Shown here: positions 3,822 through 58,085 of the stretch, one piece after another
How the letters are laid out: the number at the start of each line of letters is the position of its first letter
How positions within the stretch are numbered: position 1 is the stretch's first letter
Assembly (NCBI RefSeq): GCF_002723995.1
Contig: NZ_BEWP01000003.1
Coordinates: 1-64,000, forward strand
Direction: 5' to 3'
Length of the DNA: 64,000 bases
DNA from: Gluconobacter kondonii
GTDB taxonomy: Bacteria; Pseudomonadota; Alphaproteobacteria; Acetobacterales; Acetobacteraceae
Made by a program: the position numbers and the translations under genes
The notes under the pieces: generated by a model
Told to the model about the DNA's origin: nothing
The model's database searches: none
Seen by the model: the letters and a program-made list of their open reading frames with translations, nothing else

Positions 3822-5354
3822 ATGGCCAAGAAAGCCCCCACTTCCTCTTCCGCGACACCGAAGGCCGCTCCGGCGCGCCGTACCTCGAAGGCCGCAGCGC
3901 CCAAGGCTGCTCCGGCAGCGTCAGGCAAGCCGCCCGCTCCGAACCCGCTGGCCGTGGCCCGCGTTTTCGAGATGATCCAGGAGCACGCGGCGGAATTCGT
4001 CGATCTGCGCTTCACGGACCCCAAGGGCAAGTGGCACCACACGACCCAGACGGTCTCGACCATTGAAGACGACACCTTCGTTGAAGGCTTCATGTTCGAC
4101 GGCTCCTCCATCCAGGGCTGGAAAGCCATCAACGAGTCCGACATGGTCCTGCTTCCGGACCCGGAAACGGCCGTCATGGACCCGTTCTCGGCCAAGCCGC
4201 AGTTGATCCTGTTCTGCGACATCATTGATCCGAAGACGGGCAATTTCTACAACCGCGACCCGCGCTCGACCGCCAAGCTCGCAGAAGCCTACCTTAAGGA
4301 AGCCGGTTTCGGCGACACGGCGTTCTTCGGTCCGGAAGCCGAGTTCTTCATCTTCGACAACGTACAGTTCGGCACAGGCCCGAACTTCGGCACGTACCAG
4401 CTCGACAGCATCGAAGGCCCCGGCGCCTCCATGAAGGCCTATCCGGAAGGCAACATGGGCCATCGCCCTGTCGTCAAGGGTGGCTACTTCCCGGTTCCGC
4501 CCGTGGACAGCGAGCATGACCTGCGCGCCGAAATGCTCTCGACGATGGGCGAAATGGGCCTGCCGATCGAAAAGCATCACCATGAAGTCGCACAGTCGCA
4601 GCACGAGCTCGGCACGAAGTTCGACACGCTCGTGAAGTCCGCTGATTTCATGCAGATCTACAAGTACTGCGTGCACAACGTCGCCCATTCCTACGGCAAG
4701 ACGGCCACGTTCATGCCGAAGCCGATCTCGGGCGACAACGGCTCGGGCATGCATGTCCACCAGTCCATCTGGAAGGACGGCAAGCCGACCTTCGCCGGTG
4801 ACAAGTATGCAGACCTGTCCGAAGACGCGCTGTTCTACATCGGTGGCATCATCAAGCATGCGAAGGCCCTGAACGCCTTCACGAACCCGTCCACCAACTC
4901 CTACAAGCGCCTGATCCCGGGCTTCGAAGCGCCCGTGCTTCTGGCCTACTCCGCAGCGAACCGTTCGGCGTCGTGTCGTATCCCGCATGCGACCAACCCG
5001 AAGGCCAAGCGCGTCGAAGTCCGCTTCCCGGACCCGATGGCAAACCCGTATCTCGCCTTCGCCGCCATGCTGATGGCCGGCCTTGACGGCATCCGCAACA
5101 AGATCCACCCAGGCGACGCCATGGACAAGGATCTGTACGAACTGCCGAAGGAAGAACTGGCCCAGATCCCGACGGTCTGCGGTTCGCTCCGTGAAGCGCT
5201 CGAAGCCCTCAAGGAAGACCACGCATTCCTTCTCGAAGGCGGCGTCTTCACCAAGGACCAGATCGAAAGCTACATCGACATCAAGTGGCCGGAAGTCTAC
5301 AAGTTCGAACACACGCCGCATCCGGTAGAGTTCGAGATGTACTACTCGGTCTGA
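3822..5354 (+). CDS. glnA: Glutamine synthetase type I with N-terminal Ala/Pro/Lys-rich extension
   Basis: A cytoplasmic ATP-dependent ligase that makes glutamine from glutamate and ammonia. Signatures include [10 protein letters not shown] near the N-terminus, the ATP/glutamate-binding regions ([19 protein letters not shown]) and [10 protein letters not shown] with Tyr439, the equivalent of the tyrosine adenylylated by GlnE in type I-beta enzymes. From the ATG at 3822 (AAGGCGA upstream) the protein is 510 residues against about 470 usual; the excess is a tail of about 40 residues rich in Ala, Pro, Lys and Ser before the first GS motif. A further upstream ATG at 3771 is possible but has no ribosome site. 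A strong terminator follows at once, so the gene is probably monocistronic. Confidence 0.95.
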
Positions 5355-5380
5355 TCCGGGTCACAACATCGCTTTAACGG

Positions 5381-5407
5381 AAAGCCCGGCCTTCGCGCCG
5401 GGCTTTT
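5381..5407 (+). terminator. Rho-independent terminator of glnA
   Basis: A 10-bp GC-rich stem, AAAGCCCGGC paired with GCCGGGCTTT, a 6-nt loop and a short T-run, 26 bp after the glnA stop. Confidence 0.85.
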
Positions 5408-5439
5408 CTGTTTTCAACACACCACTCCAAGACGCCCCG

Positions 5440-6069
5440 ATGATCCCTCCTGCCCTTGAGGCATTCTCTTCGTCCGCCCTGCCCGTCCTCGACATCGCAG
5501 GCACGATCGTCTTCGCGATTTCGGGGGCGATCGAAGCCGCCCGCGCGCGCCTGACCATCGTGACGTTCATGTTCTTTGCTGCCATCACGGGCGTTGGCGG
5601 CGGAACGGTGCGGGACCTGCTGATCGGCGCACCCGTCTTCTGGATGCACGCTTCCGTCCCCATTGCCGCCTGCCTGCTTTCAGCAATCGCCGTCTGGTTC
5701 ACCCCGGCCCGCTTCTGGCCAGCCCTCGCGGTGGAATGGTTCGACGGACTTGGAATCGCCGCCTATGGCGTTTTTGGTTCAGCCAAAGCACTGGCCTATG
5801 GCATTCCGCTGATTCCGGCGGCCCTCATGGGAATTGTCAGCGCCTGCATGGGCGGTATTTTCCGGGATGTCCTGGCAGGAGTGCCGTCCATCATCATCCG
5901 GCCGGAACTTTACGTCACGGCCGTCGCGTTGGCATCAGGAAGCTATGTCTCTCTGACGGCATTGGGCCTCAATACAAGCCTTGCGGCCGCAATTGCCGTC
6001 GTGGCTGGCTTCAGCCTGCGCGCCGTAGCCCTCATCAAAGGACTCGGCCTGCCGCATTACAGACGATAG
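5440..6069 (+). CDS. Trimeric intracellular cation (TRIC) channel family protein, YicG/UPF0126 type
   Basis: A 209-residue membrane protein with about seven predicted transmembrane segments in two related halves. Each half carries the glycine-rich UPF0126 signature: GVGGGTVRDLLIG in the first and ACMGGIFRDVLAG in the second. Prokaryotic TRIC proteins form trimeric monovalent-cation channels; older annotations linked some members to glycine uptake. The ATG at 5440 follows the glnA terminator closely, so the gene probably has its own promoter or receives read-through. The family is clear from the twin motifs; the ion carried is not determined. Confidence 0.88.
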   Translation: MIPPALEAFSSSALPVLDIAGTIVFAISGAIEAARARLTIVTFMFFAAITGVGGGTVRDLLIGAPVFWMHASVPIAACLLSAIAVWFTPARFWPALAVEWFDGLGIAAYGVFGSAKALAYGIPLIPAALMGIVSACMGGIFRDVLAGVPSIIIRPELYVTAVALASGSYVSLTALGLNTSLAAAIAVVAGFSLRAVALIKGLGLPHYRR

Positions 6070-6093
6070 GCGGCAGGCCCGTTCAGACGCCTC

Positions 6094-6306
6094 TCAGGCG
6101 ATAACGTCGAAACCAACATCTTCGACAACATGCTGCAACGCCACCGGCGTCACTTTCTGCTCATCGTACTGAATGGCAGCCTGCCCCGGATCGAGCGTTA
6201 CTTCCGCCGACGACACACCCGGAACCTTGGACAGGGCAGACTGCAACTTGCCCGAACATCCGTTGCACGACATTCCGTCAACCTTGAACGTCACCATCGA
6301 AACCAT
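6094..6306 (-). CDS. Heavy-metal-associated domain protein (CopZ-like copper chaperone)
   Basis: A single 70-residue HMA domain with the ferredoxin-like fold pattern and the metal-binding motif GMSCNGCSGK (CxxC) near the N-terminus. Such proteins carry Cu(I), or sometimes other soft metals, to P-type ATPases or regulators in the cytoplasm. The ATG at 6306 has AGGAG 8 nt upstream and is preferred over an in-frame ATG at 6327. No copper ATPase or CueR-like regulator is adjacent, so it may act on a partner elsewhere. Convergent with the TRIC gene. Confidence 0.88.
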   Translation of the reverse strand: MVSMVTFKVDGMSCNGCSGKLQSALSKVPGVSSAEVTLDPGQAAIQYDEQKVTPVALQHVVEDVGFDVIA

Positions 6307-6394
6307 AAGAGATTCTCCTGTCTTCAAAGGCTGCTCCGCAAAGCAGTCGATCCCCGAAATGGGGCATATTCCCGCAGAAATGAAAACTGCTTTT

Positions 6395-6706
6395 TCAGAC
6401 CGCGTCCGCAGCCTCGTCCAGCGGCCGGACTTTCATGATGTCGAGCTGCGCATCCAGTTTTCCAAGCGCCTCACCCAGAGCCTTGAAGTGCGGTGACGCC
6501 AGATGCGCCTCGAACCCGGCTTCCGAAGTCCAGACTTCGGAAACCACAAGCCGGCCAGTCTTTTCGATATCCCTGCTGACCACATACTGGCGGCAGGCTT
6601 CTTCCTTGCGCGAAGACACGATACAGGCCGCAAAAGCATGTTCTGCCGCCGCCGCATGGTCCGCCGCGACCGTGACAACAGCCGTGATGTGAACCGTCTG
6701 ACTCAT
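6395..6706 (-). CDS. Antibiotic biosynthesis monooxygenase (ABM) domain protein / putative quinol monooxygenase
   Basis: A 103-residue single-domain protein of the dimeric alpha/beta ferredoxin-like ABM fold, with the typical VSEVWTSEAGFEAHL and SPHFKAL region in its second half. Family members include YgiN-type quinol monooxygenases, but many have no known substrate. The ATG at 6706 has GAGGAA upstream and is favoured over the long upstream open frame, which overlaps gcvP. A related gene (11719-12021) lies on the other side of the gcv operon. A parS-like site lies 61 bp upstream. Confidence 0.82.
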   Translation of the reverse strand: MSQTVHITAVVTVAADHAAAAEHAFAACIVSSRKEEACRQYVVSRDIEKTGRLVVSEVWTSEAGFEAHLASPHFKALGEALGKLDAQLDIMKVRPLDEAADAV

Positions 6707-6766
6707 GGGGAAATTCCTCATCAACAATGGCAACTGCCCGGCCGCGACCTTTCCGAAGACGGGCAG

Positions 6767-6782
6767 TGTTTCACGTGAAACC
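6767..6782. promoter_or_regulatory. parS-like centromere site 2
   Basis: TGTTTCACGTGAAACC, 15 of 16 bases identical to the canonical ParB-binding site. It lies in the intergenic space between gcvP and the ABM-domain gene. Confidence 0.85.
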
Positions 6783-48954: not shown

Positions 48955-49641
48955 TCAGCCCCGGAAATCAGGCAGTTCGTTAACCGTTACGACACGCCAC
49001 AGGCAGTCGATACGCTCCAGAATGGTGATGGACAGGTTTTGAATCGAAAACCGCAGAGCCGTATCAGGATGCACGCCCAGCGCATGCGCCAAAGCTGCGC
49101 GGATGGCCCCGCCGTGACTGACGACAACCATGTCCTCACCTTCATGGGCATTCGCCAGATCCTCTAGACCATGCGCCACACGCGCACAGACATCCAGCAT
49201 GCTCTCCCCGCCCGGCGGCAGTTCACATGCGGAAATGGACCAGAACGGATTAGGCGGCAGTCGCAGCAGAGACATGAACTCCGTATGCGGCGTGCCATGC
49301 CATTCCCCGATCGACTGTTCGATGAAACGGCCGTCAATCGTCACATCCTGCGAAAACGCCCCTGCCTTACGGATCTCGCTCGCCGTGTCACGCGCGCGCT
49401 GGAGCGGCGAACTATACCACAATGCATCGGTCGGCAGACGCCGCGCCAGCGTGGCATAGCCGCCCTGCTGGCTTGCCATCGCTTCCCGACATAGCGGCAC
49501 ATCAAGCGCCCCATACATCGTCTTGCGCGCACTGGCTTCCACGACCGCGTGGCGAATCATCCAGAACCGGGTCACGCCCTTCGGCAGTTCCGGCGTATCG
49601 AGAAAATGCCCGTGCGGGACCGCTTTATCTGTCTGGGTCAT
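48955..49641 (-). CDS. Histidine phosphatase family protein (phosphoglycerate mutase-like)
   Basis: A 228-residue cytoplasmic protein of histidine-phosphatase clade 1. The catalytic motif is FWMIRHAVVEAS, with Ala in place of the usual Gly of RHG, and the second His is in VVVSHGGAIRAAL. The SSPLQRARDTASEI and GEWHG regions are typical. Substrate is not evident; relatives include alpha-ribazole phosphatases and sugar-phosphate phosphatases. The ATG at 49641 overlaps the stop of the PLP-fold gene as ATGA, so the two are translated together. Confidence 0.87.
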   Translation of the reverse strand: MTQTDKAVPHGHFLDTPELPKGVTRFWMIRHAVVEASARKTMYGALDVPLCREAMASQQGGYATLARRLPTDALWYSSPLQRARDTASEIRKAGAFSQDVTIDGRFIEQSIGEWHGTPHTEFMSLLRLPPNPFWSISACELPPGGESMLDVCARVAHGLEDLANAHEGEDMVVVSHGGAIRAALAHALGVHPDTALRFSIQNLSITILERIDCLWRVVTVNELPDFRG

Positions 49642-51686
49642 GCTAATGGGGCGTAACGGGGGACGGGGTTCGCGTCCAGCAGAACATCCCAGTGTTTCAG
49701 GATCAGTTCCAGTTTTCCCAGCACCCGGCGCGCATCCGTGCATTCGCGCTGCAACCGGCGCTCCTCGTCCAGTCCTTCATGCGATGGCTCTCCCGACACC
49801 AGCCGCGCCCCCGCGCACAGACGCAGCGCGCCCGCGGGTCCATCCAGCATCGGATGCGGCACTGGAACGGGCTGCCCCAGAACACAGAGCAGACTGCCCT
49901 CCCCTTCCATAACCCAAGGCGACAGATCCGCATTCAGCCAGCGGTGCAACCGTCGCGCGTCTTCCAGCGCAAGCGGCTGGCCGGGTGCATGAGGGTCCTC
50001 CACCAGAAACGACAGAATGGTCGGAACCGCGTCCCAGCGCCCGTCATCAAAAGGCGTGCCCATAGGCAGCATGGTCAGGACCGGACGGGCGCGCACCATG
50101 GCAACGGCCTCCGTCATAAACCGCGTCAGACGACTGCGAATGACCCGGTCGGGCAACGCAAACAGCGCATCCATTTCGGCAAGGGCCGCATACCAGCGCA
50201 GGGCCAGCCCGATATTGTGACCGTTATTGAGCGCCGAAGCATCCGCACCTTCCGGCCACTCATCGCGGTTGCCATAGGCCCGCAAGCCTTTCGGAAGTGA
50301 CAGGGACGGCAGACGATTGCGGATTTGAGGGGGGAGGAGAATGGCCCCGCAAAACGGTGGGCCGGTAAAAAACTTGGAGCCGGTAATCATGACGATGATC
50401 CCCCGCTCCACCCAGTCCGCCACCCGCGACGGACTCAACCGCGCCTGACAGACATCGATAACGACGCTGAGCTGATCGCCCAGCCCGGTACACAATTCCC
50501 AGACAAGATCCATGTCCGGCGCAGCAAGCCCGGTCTTGGACTGGTCCAGCCGGTGCAACAGCACATGCCGCCCCTCGGCCGCTTCGCGTCGCACAAGGGC
50601 CGCACATTGTGCATTGATCTCCGCGACAGGCCGCGCCGTGCCATCAGCCGCACGGATATCGACACCAATCAACCGCGTGTCCGGCGAAAACCCTTCGATC
50701 ACCTCGCCCTTGCCCACCAGCGTGGAGCACGCACTATCCGTCGCAAAATGCCGACCGCAAGCCGCCAGAGGCACCCCGCTGCCCGTTTCATCCGGGGCCA
50801 GAAGGATGGACGTCACCGGACGCTGCGTTCCCGCCGCTACAAGCGCCAGAACCGCCAATTCACAGTCTGTCCCGGACGCCGATAGCAGAACCGCATCTTC
50901 CGGCAGACCATAATGAGCGCCAATCGCCGCCCGGGCCCGGCGCACAACACCTTCCTGAACCAGATCCGGGTCCTGCTTGGCCAGCAGCGCACTCATCATG
51001 GCACGTCGAGCGGATTCAGCCCCCCCAAAACCGCGTTCGGACAGCGAAGACGCCGTCGATGACCCAAAAGTGATCGCCCAAGGCCGAGGACGATGAGAGC
51101 TGGAATACCGGTTCAGCCCGGTATGTGGATCGACAGCCAGCCGTGAATCCCCGCCCCCGCTCATCAGGCTCTCGGCGGGTGCCAGAACAGGCCACAACCG
51201 GGTCAGAACGCCTTGCAGACGCTCGGCTTCAGGCTGTGTGAACAGCGGCAGATCCGGCAGAAACGCGCTCAGCGTCTCCCAACTCCGCAACAGGGCAGGA
51301 ACATCGGGCACGTCGCCTGCGAAAACCGCAAGCCAGAATGGAAGCGGCGCGACATCGCCGGTATCCAGCGCATGAAACAGCGCCGCCACGCGCGCCGCGG
51401 CAAAGCTGGCCAGAAATGGATTGGCGCCGGGCTCCAGCAGTCGCATGAGTTCAATCGCATGGCGCAGGAAGGTCGGCGCAAGACGCGGCGCTTCAAGACA
51501 TAACCCACCCAGCTTGAGCGTCGCCGTGGACAGGCAGAAAGCCTGCCCCGGCACCAGTTCTCCTTCGATCCGGAACGGAAGCGGCAGTGACACATCCAGG
51601 ATCGGAACCAATCCGTCCGCAATCACCCGCAGATCGGGTCGCTCCAGAACATCCGTCAAAGAGCGTGTCAAAGTATCAGCCAGCAT
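49638..51686 (-). CDS. Large PLP-fold (aminotransferase class V-like) protein of unknown function
   Basis: A 682-residue protein. The first 185 or so residues match nothing I recognise: a helical, Leu- and Pro-rich domain without signal peptide. From about 190 to 560 the protein looks like fold-type I: TFGSSTASSLSERGFGGAES (207-226), SASGTDCELAVL (269-280), the PLP ring-binding Asp411 in VVIDVCQAR, and the likely Schiff-base Lys438 in ITGSKFFTGPPF. The last 120 residues continue with the C-terminal domain and a Trp-rich tail. It is coupled to the histidine phosphatase by a 4-bp overlap. A phosphorylated-substrate pathway is a guess from that pairing only. Confidence 0.7.
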   Translation of the reverse strand: MLADTLTRSLTDVLERPDLRVIADGLVPILDVSLPLPFRIEGELVPGQAFCLSTATLKLGGLCLEAPRLAPTFLRHAIELMRLLEPGANPFLASFAAARVAALFHALDTGDVAPLPFWLAVFAGDVPDVPALLRSWETLSAFLPDLPLFTQPEAERLQGVLTRLWPVLAPAESLMSGGGDSRLAVDPHTGLNRYSSSHRPRPWAITFGSSTASSLSERGFGGAESARRAMMSALLAKQDPDLVQEGVVRRARAAIGAHYGLPEDAVLLSASGTDCELAVLALVAAGTQRPVTSILLAPDETGSGVPLAACGRHFATDSACSTLVGKGEVIEGFSPDTRLIGVDIRAADGTARPVAEINAQCAALVRREAAEGRHVLLHRLDQSKTGLAAPDMDLVWELCTGLGDQLSVVIDVCQARLSPSRVADWVERGIIVMITGSKFFTGPPFCGAILLPPQIRNRLPSLSLPKGLRAYGNRDEWPEGADASALNNGHNIGLALRWYAALAEMDALFALPDRVIRSRLTRFMTEAVAMVRARPVLTMLPMGTPFDDGRWDAVPTILSFLVEDPHAPGQPLALEDARRLHRWLNADLSPWVMEGEGSLLCVLGQPVPVPHPMLDGPAGALRLCAGARLVSGEPSHEGLDEERRLQRECTDARRVLGKLELILKHWDVLLDANPVPRYAPLA

Positions 51687-55481: not shown

Positions 55482-56420
55482 ATGACACAGAAAAGGACAG
55501 AACCTTCCAGCCAGGTCGCCATTCTCCTGTCACTGTATAATGGAGAAGCCTATCTCGATGCGCAGCTCACGAGCATCCTGGCCCAAACACACCCAGACTG
55601 GACACTATACTGGCGAGACGACGCTTCCTCTGATTTCTCAAGAAGCCGGATGCAGGCTTTTGCCCAAGGCCCCGGACAGGGAAGATGTATCGAGATTACC
55701 AGCCGTCAGGAACGTCTCGGCGTTGCGGGCTCCTATGCCCATCTGCTCGATGTCGTCCCGTCCACACCCTATGTCGCTTTCGCCGATCAGGACGACATCT
55801 GGGAGCCACAAAAGCTGGAATGGGCGCTAGACACCGTCGCACGCTGCCCATCCCACAAGCCGACGCTATATTGTGCCCGGCAATACCTGACGAACGCAGA
55901 TCTCGTAATTTTTCAGGAATCTGCTCCCCTTCGCCGCAAACCCAATTTTCCCACGGCCCTGACGCAGAACATCGCAACTGGCCACACAGTGCTACTGAAT
56001 GCAGCAACACACACCCTCCTGCGCAACAATCCGCCACCCCCTTCCATCCTACATGACTGGTGGGCCTATCTCCTGACGGCCGCAGCGGGAGGGGAGGTCA
56101 TTTTCGACAGCCGCTGCGTCAGCTATTATCGCCAGCACGCGCACAACACCATCGGTGCAACCGACTCTTTCATCAAACGCGGTTGGGCGGCCTGCCGCCG
56201 TGGACCAAAAGTCTTCATGACGATCTTCCGCTCCAACGTGACGCATCTTCTGAACCAGCCGGAAAACCTGTCCCCCCCAGCCCTGCGCCTGCTTAAGGCC
56301 ATCGCCGCGGCTCGGACGTTCCCCGCCCGGCTCCGTACCCTTTTCAGATACTCGTCCCTCCGACGACAGCGCTTCTCCGAAACTGTAGTTTTTCGGCTCT
56401 GGTTCCTGTTCTCACGTTAG
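55482..56420 (+). CDS. Glycosyltransferase family 2 (rhamnosyltransferase-like)
   Basis: A 312-residue GT-A-fold enzyme. The donor-binding start is VAILLSLYNGEAYLDAQLTSILAQTH; WRDDASSD and FADQDDIWEPQKLEWAL hold the DxD and acceptor-base motifs as in dTDP-rhamnosyl transferases such as RfbN/WbbL-like proteins. A basic C-terminal region with hydrophobic stretches may bind the membrane. It directly follows rmlD, which suits a rhamnosyltransferase. The start at 55482 is the first Met before homology; an earlier TTG at 55419 is possible. Confidence 0.85.
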   Translation: MTQKRTEPSSQVAILLSLYNGEAYLDAQLTSILAQTHPDWTLYWRDDASSDFSRSRMQAFAQGPGQGRCIEITSRQERLGVAGSYAHLLDVVPSTPYVAFADQDDIWEPQKLEWALDTVARCPSHKPTLYCARQYLTNADLVIFQESAPLRRKPNFPTALTQNIATGHTVLLNAATHTLLRNNPPPPSILHDWWAYLLTAAAGGEVIFDSRCVSYYRQHAHNTIGATDSFIKRGWAACRRGPKVFMTIFRSNVTHLLNQPENLSPPALRLLKAIAAARTFPARLRTLFRYSSLRRQRFSETVVFRLWFLFSR

Positions 56421-56520
56421 ATGTCTATTTCCGAAATGTAATGGCGCGTACCTTCGCATGAATAATAAATTCTGATAATAAAACAAAATAATTATAATTT
56501 ACATATGGAATATTTTGCTT

Positions 56521-57423
56521 TTACTTACACCCAGGAAATAATCTTTTTACTTCTTTCATTATCCCATAACAAGGTGTATACTTATAAACTGTAGGCCTAG
56601 ATATGGGATAAAGACCAAATCCAGCCAAAAATTTAGCGCTTGAAACACTTCCATAGCAATCAAAGTCCAAAATTTTTCCCATTGAAGAAGCCAATTTCAT
56701 ACATTCCCACAGCAATAATGAATTTGCTCCTGCATAAGAAAAATTTGTATCTCTTGCTGATTGCCAGAAGTACATAATATTTTCTCCCCATATTACAATT
56801 GATGCTGCAACCGGAATATGTCCTTTATACGCGACAACCGTTACCAATTGATCTCTAAGCAGACATTGCCTACAAATTTCTTCCAATAATTTATAATTAT
56901 GTGTGCTTTCCTCATTTCTTTGTTTTTTTGACAAATAAAAGAAGGAATCTATTGAGTTCTCAATTCGAATTTCCAACAATTTACCAGTAGTTCGAATTAA
57001 ATTTCGAGTTTTTTGATCGAGATTATTCCACACATCTTCTAAATCAACATTAAAATCATATTGAAATGTAGATTGATTGGATATGTTAAATCCCTCTAAT
57101 TCGAATGCGAAAAGAGTTTCATCGTGAGGATCAAATGACAATCTAAAATTACTATAGTTCGGTATATTTTGAACCACCCCTTCCACCAGACGTCGTATGT
57201 TCTGTCCTTTTTTAAAGGGCTTTGACTCTGGAATATCGAACTGGGGAGAGAGAGTTCTTGTATATGGAGGCATCGAAATACTTGTCATGCCCAGATTTTT
57301 TATTTTGTATATTGGAAGTTTTATATTTAATTTATTGCTATGAGTATAATTTATAAACTCTATTTTTCCTTCCGTTACACAATCAAGCCACCATTCCTCC
57401 ATGAAAATACTGTTCTTTTTCAT
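56521..57423 (-). CDS. FemAB/GNAT-like acyltransferase in an AT-rich insert
   Basis: A 300-residue protein with two GNAT-like halves. The second half is most family-like: VAYKGHIPVAASIVIWGENIMYFWQSARD, then LLLWECMKLASSMGKILDFDCYG and FLAGFGLYP, the pattern of FemAB-related or BioF2-like acyltransferases that modify peptidoglycan, polysaccharides or amino acids. Codon use is markedly AT-rich (AAT, ATA, TTT, AAA), unlike all neighbours. AGGACA precedes the ATG at 57423; an alternative ATG at 57444 is possible. It lies opposite the glycosyltransferase. Confidence 0.75.
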   Translation of the reverse strand: MKKNSIFMEEWWLDCVTEGKIEFINYTHSNKLNIKLPIYKIKNLGMTSISMPPYTRTLSPQFDIPESKPFKKGQNIRRLVEGVVQNIPNYSNFRLSFDPHDETLFAFELEGFNISNQSTFQYDFNVDLEDVWNNLDQKTRNLIRTTGKLLEIRIENSIDSFFYLSKKQRNEESTHNYKLLEEICRQCLLRDQLVTVVAYKGHIPVAASIVIWGENIMYFWQSARDTNFSYAGANSLLLWECMKLASSMGKILDFDCYGSVSSAKFLAGFGLYPISRPTVYKYTPCYGIMKEVKRLFPGCK

Positions 57424-57641
57424 TGTCCTGTTCCCGAAATGCATTATTCATCGTCTCTAGATATTGGTACACAACTCTAAACAAATTGTAGTGTGATAAT
57501 TTTCATACTTTTCGTTAAAAATTAGTTATTATAATTTCTATACTGTCTATTCAATATTTTCCAGAGTGGGTTTTGAGAAAATGGCTGCAGACGGCCCCGT
57601 CCGCTCATCTGCCAGCCGATACGATTTCTATTTTATTAATC

Positions 57642-58085
57642 TCAGACCTTTAACTTCAAATACTGACGGATGATTTCCATAAACGCACCATCCTGCTCCA
57701 AGCTGAACGGTCGCGCCGCATCGTAATCATAGACCGTCCCCGCCGGGCGCGTGGCCTTTTCAGGATCTTCGGACGCATAGCGCGGCACGATATGGGTATG
57801 CAGGGACGGTGCCAGATTACACCAGGTCTCGTAATTGATCCGCACTGCGTCAGTGACCGCCAGCAACGCATCCCCGACCGCCGCCATATCGGCCAGATAC
57901 TGCGCCCGCGCCTCGCCGTGCAGGTCATTGATCGTCGGCACGACCGGATCAGCCAGAAGCTGGCAGTATCCCGGCAAAGGCTGCGTCCCCCCGATCACCA
58001 GCCAGCCCGATTTCATCCGCCCGATAACAGAAGGGTTGCTGCCACGTCGTGCGGCAGCAACCCTCTGTGCGATAACATCCGTCAT
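57642..58085 (-). CDS. HIT family protein
   Basis: A 147-residue protein of the histidine-triad superfamily. The active-site region LAPSLHTHIVPRY shows H-x-H-x(4), a shortened form of HxHxHxx, so hydrolase activity on nucleotide phosphates is plausible but not assured. The upstream region GWLVIGGTQPLPGYCQLLADPVV is typical of HIT proteins. GAAGGGGAA precedes the ATG at 58085. It follows the MFS transporter on the same strand by 35 bp and may be co-transcribed. Confidence 0.83.
   Translation of the reverse strand: MTDVIAQRVAAARRGSNPSVIGRMKSGWLVIGGTQPLPGYCQLLADPVVPTINDLHGEARAQYLADMAAVGDALLAVTDAVRINYETWCNLAPSLHTHIVPRYASEDPEKATRPAGTVYDYDAARPFSLEQDGAFMEIIRQYLKLKV

Follow-up and report, generated by a model that had tools for sequence, protein, structure and literature searches.

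Class V, or NifS-like, pyridoxal phosphate (PLP) enzymes such as the cystine C-S lyase C-DES, the desulfurase SufS, AGXT and 2-aminoethylphosphonate transaminase have a fold-type I core with an Asp-x-x-Gln motif, a Schiff-base lysine and a C-terminal arginine. The lysine motif of cysteine desulfurases is S-x-H-K, and isopenicillin N epimerase is an example of a class V epimerase. Group II PLP decarboxylases (PF00282), acting on tryptophan/tyrosine/DOPA or on L-2,4-diaminobutyrate (DABA), are separated from aldehyde synthases by a loop tyrosine. Here we compare with these systems a protein of 682 amino acids (aa) encoded on the minus strand of a 64,000-nucleotide stretch of Gluconobacter kondonii DNA (positions 1 to 64,000 of contig NZ_BEWP01000003.1, RefSeq assembly GCF_002723995.1; hereafter the window), where its gene is followed, within positions 48955-51686, by that of a histidine phosphatase. 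Our favoured reading, to which we assign a probability of roughly 0.55, is that it is an unnamed class V PLP enzyme serving the same pathway as a decarboxylase encoded at an unlinked site, and that the phosphatase is a mere neighbour.

Fold and family of the PLP protein

The original prediction had described a fold-type I core with Asp411 and Lys438 placed as in class V enzymes, and both the residues and the fold bear this out. The AlphaFold2 model (predicted local distance difference test score, pLDDT, 92.1; predicted template-modelling score, pTM, 0.92) is matched in Foldseek first by class V carbon-sulfoxide lyases (best E 4.6e-13) and then by desulfurases (SufS). In the VIA fold comparison the top match is C-DES (1elq; Z 22.6, root-mean-square deviation 3.8 over 357 residues), with NifS, AGXT and 2-aminoethylphosphonate transaminase tied with it at Z about 22. 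Across 26 diverse relatives, with identities down to about 30%, Ser271, Gly272, Asp274, Asp411, Gln414, Lys438 and Arg622 are invariant (26/26). The protein thus shares with class V enzymes the fold-type I core, the Asp-x-x-Gln motif, the Schiff-base lysine and the C-terminal arginine, and is alike at Z about 22 over about 355 residues, but it is only 10-14% identical to them, has no Pfam class V match and shows conserved positions of its own in the same 26 members, namely ETG (300-302), Lys384-Thr385 and TGSKF (435-439); its long form also carries an extra N-terminal domain of 185 residues. On the strength of the model, the core is that of a class V, fold-type I PLP enzyme with predicted PLP binding, and the modelled fold tells nothing on which reaction is catalysed. 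Apart from general class V enzymes, the fold rows shown include no entry named as an epimerase, racemase or kynureninase, which excludes none of these activities.

A confident match to a named family, which the original prediction had set against itself, was not found. The Pfam search returned no family up to E 1, so that the Aminotran_5 cut-off is not reached and the protein, class V-like as it is, stands outside that curated family. NCBIfam gave a single row at chance level (E 0.19), phmmer against the PDB gave two aldolase rows only, likewise at chance level, and hmmsearch of the PDB with a profile of the protein gave no match at 0.1.

Homologues occur in 41 of 150 Acetobacteraceae genomes, in many genera and at 45-59% identity over nearly the full frame, with shorter and weaker rows beneath; since it is conserved across genera, the frame is not a product of chance. 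Matches also come from plasmids of Rhizobium, Sinorhizobium and Neorhizobium (33 records), none of them covering 80% of the query, and the rows shown correspond to the core region. The profile matches 25 of 398 genomes in a phylum-wide sample (including the window's genome and one other of the Acetobacteraceae), the protein is found in 3 of 190 genomes of a class-level draw (the window's genome among them), and a scan of one genome collection confirmed at least 583 places. At three small-genome loci (L212-L214) a frameshift in the gene was considered and ruled out, both profile pieces lying in one frame. Absence calls among the 150 family genomes were retested for 26 of the 109 genomes lacking the PLP gene; genome G009 is counted as lacking it despite a probable fragment at a contig end (E 2.5e-11), and the second match, in G099 (E 3.4e-5), seems due to chance.

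Association with an unlinked decarboxylase

The window's genome encodes the decarboxylase at contig C5:81110-82519 (E 6e-208), unlinked to the PLP gene and adjoining cobS/cobT and a DUF1217 gene. It is this protein, not the PLP protein, that belongs with the group II enzymes: it scores 194.3 bits against PF00282 (cut-off 27), and its best PDB relative is 4obu (E 2.4e-61). It falls below the NCBIfam equivalog cut-offs, the member at locus L215 reaching 184 of the 900 bits required for DABA decarboxylase. In the alignments the Gluconobacter enzyme retains the lysine that binds PLP, the histidine that stacks on it and the tyrosine of the loop, and is therefore probably active. One paper names GDI1891 as an aromatic-L-amino-acid decarboxylase gene and connects it with a possible route to auxin (PMC2765452); this need not be the partner gene described here.

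A strong decarboxylase match is present in 38 of the 41 Acetobacteraceae genomes with the PLP gene and in 14 of the 109 without it (Fisher 2e-20), the cut between strong and weak having been chosen after a gap from 1.1e-161 to 3.1e-94 was seen; at a limit of 1e-50 the counts are 39/41 and 25/109. The flagellar control gene product FlgI shows no association in the same 150 genomes (33/41 vs 84/109; p 0.83). In the group of 31 genomes whose phosphatase is of the closest type (rows of at least 230 bits, a threshold set after reading the results), the decarboxylase occurs in 21/21 genomes with the PLP gene and 0/10 without, compared with 15/21 and 4/10 for FlgI (p 0.13). Two of these ten belong to the window's own genus, and both keep FlgI. 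An MnmG tree was built for 30 genomes, with G068 added to 29 of the 31 and G085 and G126 left out; the nine genomes in it that lack the PLP gene require 3 changes (bootstrap 3-4).

Outside the Acetobacteraceae we read 20 distant loci from 14 genera and three Rhizobiaceae plasmid loci, 23 in all. Of the 25 profile-matching genomes, five outside the family (G405, G427, G478, G518 and G537) did not enter the neighbourhood reading; the 190-genome draw contributed two more loci, and the plasmid loci represent four of the 33 records, two near-identical ones being counted as one. At 16 of the 23 loci (by genus, in 10 of the 14 represented by the distant loci) the decarboxylase adjoins the PLP gene or lies no more than 2.5 kb away, and the L215 copy matches PF00282 at E 7.3e-61. 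An ATP-grasp-like gene is near the PLP gene at 14 of the 23, and at L216:10127-12778 (G226, same class) the decarboxylase and the ATP-grasp-like protein form one 884-residue open frame. Neither gene adjoins the PLP gene at the three plasmid loci. Co-occurrence within the family and adjacency outside it are the reasons for placing the PLP enzyme and the decarboxylase in one pathway.

The ATP-grasp-like protein, of about 410 residues, shares a remote profile match with ATP-grasp ligases (PDB profile, E 2.9e-5 to ribosomal protein S6 modification protein, RimK, and 0.0027 to D-Ala-D-Ala ligase). It differs from them in its N-terminal part, which looks tetratricopeptide-repeat-like only by eye and from a chance-level row, and in falling into no Pfam family (two members searched) and no NCBIfam family (one member). 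The decarboxylase is also present at L206 and L207; a tandem ATP-grasp protein lies nearby in L206 and has a homologue in L207. This L206 protein (3942-6773; 944 residues) combines two ATP-grasp units with a C-terminal acylphosphatase domain and adjoins both the decarboxylase and the PLP gene.

Several observations weigh against a shared pathway. The MnmG tree is poorly resolved and holds only about 3 independent changes, the Fisher values disregard common descent and so overstate the independent evidence, and loss through genome reduction could explain part of the co-occurrence. The decarboxylase family is also wider than the PLP family, as the strong matches in 14 genomes lacking the PLP gene attest; the two genes are unlinked in acetic acid bacteria, stand together at just one of ten diverged Acetobacteraceae loci and at none of the three plasmid loci read, and G454 and G618, both outside the Acetobacteraceae, carry the PLP gene with no decarboxylase match. 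As to the third component, the ATP-grasp-like gene has no match in the window's genome and reaches E<1e-40 in only 13 of the 40 family genomes given that carry the PLP gene; this search recovered all four genomes with a known gene, three of which had supplied model rows. Genome G110 was left out of this search and of the decarboxylase search that placed the C5 gene.

Taking both sides together, the PLP enzyme most likely catalyses a step in an amino-acid/amine pathway that is still undescribed. Lys438 would carry the cofactor as an internal aldimine, Asp411 would pair with its pyridine nitrogen and Arg622 would bind the substrate carboxylate, so that the enzyme would probably convert an alpha-amino acid or a close derivative. 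It would share its pathway with the group II, aromatic-amino-acid-decarboxylase-like PLP enzyme, one of the two making or trimming an unusual amino acid and the other decarboxylating one to an amine; the ligase, where present, may attach a piece to an acceptor through an amide linkage. The family with its invariant residues, the predicted fold, the co-occurrence and the gene neighbourhoods are what the analysis shows; substrate, reaction, step order and the part played by the N-terminal domain are inferred. The parts of open-licence PubMed Central texts that were available yielded no description of a PLP/decarboxylase system.

Alternative roles and the phosphatase neighbour

At the Sinorhizobium medicae plasmid loci L032:13127-16554 and L034:15019-16554, a gene for a nonribosomal peptide synthetase (NRPS) or an AMP-binding protein is directly followed by the PLP gene with a 4-nt overlap, and genes for a phosphopantetheinyl transferase and a nitroreductase/SagB-type dehydrogenase lie nearby; these loci are a candidate natural-product cluster. 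A Neorhizobium copy sits by genes annotated by the depositors as D-aminopeptidase and D-alanine aminotransferase. Such NRPS and D-amino-acid neighbours fit amino-acid chemistry without fixing it. They also speak for the best-surviving alternative, in which the protein is a D-amino-acid enzyme, a class V epimerase or racemase feeding a ligase or NRPS, as does a neighbouring gene, assigned to one cluster at L208, L209 and L211, of which the one member tested, in L209, contains PF07478 (D-Ala-D-Ala ligase C-terminus). We nevertheless regard this role as unlikely: the loci cited have no adjacent decarboxylase, the annotations are the depositors', and the fold rows single out no epimerase.

A cysteine desulfurase or C-S lyase activity would agree with the leading Foldseek matches, carbon-sulfoxide lyases and then SufS, and with C-DES as the top VIA match. 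The VIA rows within Z 1, however, are tied with aminotransferases, the lysine motif is TGSKF rather than S-x-H-K, and no sulfur-acceptor gene was noticed in the neighbourhoods printed, where none was searched for, which leaves this activity improbable in our view.

Modification of flagellin or of another flagellar protein was considered in view of six of the 20 distant loci (L199-L202, L204 and L215), which lie in what read as flagellar clusters (hook, hook-associated, flagellin and FlbT-like genes; L201 and L215 identified by reading and the others by shared gene clusters, with no family search). This setting suggests flagellin modification in those lineages. Furthermore, in Gluconobacter and G025 the genes that precede the decarboxylase fall into one cluster, whose Gluconobacter member is DUF1217 by Pfam, and one paper mentions both flagellin and DUF1217. 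As a general role, flagellar modification was rejected and seems doubtful at best, given that FlgI does not track the PLP gene over the 150 genomes, that 8 of the 41 genomes with the PLP gene have no FlgI match, and that the two genomes of the window's genus with neither the PLP gene nor the decarboxylase retain FlgI.

The original prediction had coupled the PLP enzyme to the phosphatase as a candidate functional unit. The phosphatase itself belongs to branch 1 of the histidine phosphatase superfamily, with 150.9 bits and E 4.5e-44 against PF00300 (cut-off 21.7) and the catalytic His of its RH pair kept. Its closest NCBIfam model is that of the alpha-ribazole phosphatase CobC (TIGR03162; E 7.7e-30), from which it differs by a score of 103.6 bits, under the cut-off of 162.9, and by the motif RHA in place of RHG. 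RHA was read correctly from the start and is the usual motif of this group, being present in 88 of 91 phosphatases beside a PLP gene and 16 of 17 at loci without one.

The predicted persistence of the pair holds within acetic acid bacteria and was not seen at the loci read beyond the family. At 71 of 80 PLP loci of named genomes the next gene downstream, on the same strand, is the phosphatase, with a 4-nt overlap in 22 of the 71, and the same holds for 19 of 38 other family loci and for the window; some of the 38 are of the same species as the 80, and stretches L073 and L074, of 40 family stretches, had no tblastn match to the PLP protein and were not counted. At the 23 loci read outside the Acetobacteraceae it is never beside the PLP gene. 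Within the family it occurs at E<1e-20 in 132 of 150 genomes, 37/41 with and 95/109 without the PLP gene. This cut-off was set after seeing the results; relaxing it to E<=0.001 gives 147/150, but weak rows at that level may belong to other phosphatases, and 15 of the 147 have weaker rows only, including four with the PLP gene. At six loci without the PLP gene the phosphatase adjoins the same rfbB-like gene, 154-378 bases away. In one of these acetic acid bacteria (G101, L179:8394-8438) a 15-codon fossil of the PLP C-terminus stands upstream of the phosphatase (26.6 bits vs a best of 22.7 in 1000 shuffles), so that here the PLP gene was deleted while its phosphatase neighbour stayed; no such trace is present in the other five gaps.

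A two-step pathway in which the PLP enzyme makes a phosphorylated amino acid and the phosphatase then dephosphorylates it, as in SerC/SerB logic, draws on the frequent downstream position and on a plausible translational coupling through the overlap, but we reject this functional pair as improbable, because the phosphatase is found with and without the PLP gene, is retained where that gene is gone (once with its fossil), remains by rfbB at the six loci and is not by the PLP gene at 9 of the 80 named-genome loci, and because it is the unlinked decarboxylase that tracks the PLP gene instead. The phosphatase is probably a family-wide gene, co-expressed by position only, a co-located neighbour rather than a member of the PLP pathway.

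Both reading frames of the predicted two-gene unit lie at the coordinates first proposed, and their overlap was confirmed. The phosphatase frame of 262 aa in the open reading frame list is probably 34 residues too long, with the real start at the Met at 49641, because this Met yields the ATGA junction with the PLP stop and because two genomes of the same genus lacking the PLP gene match only from residues 42 and 39. Gluconobacter relatives have the phosphatase Met at the same place, but the gene-start script favoured starts near there.

Features of the PLP and phosphatase genes in the window
Feature	Position	Strand	Basis or remark
PLP-fold protein gene, 682 aa	49638..51686	(-)	ATG at 51686, TGA at 49640-49638
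N-terminal domain, residues 1-185	51132..51686	(-)	mostly helical; weak zincin-like resemblance
Class V fold-type I core, residues 190-640	49767..51119	(-)	model and fold matches
Asp411, predicted to pair with the pyridine nitrogen of PLP	50454..50456	(-)	invariant in 26 relatives; role by analogy to class V enzymes
Lys438 in TGSKF, predicted Schiff-base lysine	50373..50375	(-)	invariant in 26 relatives; role by analogy
Arg622, predicted substrate carboxylate binder	49821..49823	(-)	invariant in 26 relatives; role inferred
ATGA stop/start overlap of the two genes, 4 nt	49638..49641	(-)	
Histidine phosphatase gene, branch 1, RHA motif, 228 aa	48955..49641	(-)	

The pair is flanked by a tRNA-Lys and a parB-like gene on one side and by divergent dTDP-sugar cluster genes on the other, parB and the sugar cluster being named by reading, with no family search. 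Over the PLP protein, the nearest named genomes among the matches listed are Gluconobacter cadivus (98%) and Gluconobacter albidus (96%). Positions 56001-58000 of the window, adjoining the sugar cluster, have a guanine-plus-cytosine content of 0.435 vs about 0.58-0.59 on both sides, span a 307-aa open reading frame (56521-57444) and are possibly a recent import.

The N-terminal domain and a possible wider system

The first 185 residues were originally said to hold no recognisable domain, and no named domain has emerged; what can be added is a weak resemblance to zincin-like folds. Acetic acid bacteria, Acidisoma and Acidiphilium carry the domain, as does one genome from a different family (G363, with a profile span of 13-658, read at locus L206); it is absent from the Rhizobiaceae plasmid copies read and from several shorter Acetobacteraceae forms. 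Predicted in isolation (pLDDT 90.0, pTM 0.85) it has no Foldseek match below E 1. Its best VIA match reaches Z 6.8 (2ejq) and others 4.5-5.5, values below 8 that could be chance; most of the first 16 VIA rows are zincin-like proteins, among them MATCAP, SprT, selecase, jannalysin and IrrE. In 43 aligned domains Arg75 and Arg99 are invariant and Glu79 is found in 42, with Arg75 and Glu79 spaced one helical turn apart and Arg99 on the next long helix. In a gluzincin these positions would be taken by both histidines of the HExxH motif and by the distal Glu. The domain therefore differs from the minimal gluzincins that it weakly resembles in having Arg75, Glu79 and Arg99 conserved where HExxH and the distal Glu are expected. 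In the long form it probably derives from a zincin, has no metal and no catalytic role, and serves for binding or docking, a reading for which the evidence is weak and the Z values alone allow chance.

A more far-reaching proposal, tentative enough that we would not back it at even odds, is that the PLP enzyme and the decarboxylase, joined in many lineages by the ATP-grasp-like ligase, constitute a widespread undescribed pathway of Pseudomonadota for making an amino-acid-derived amine or amide, and that the dead zincin domain of this new-family enzyme, with an Arg/Glu/Arg triad replacing the metal site, would capture a substrate or carrier. Whatever the reaction, a PLP family with at least 583 places escapes Pfam and NCBIfam in the members tested and adjoins a misleading neighbour.

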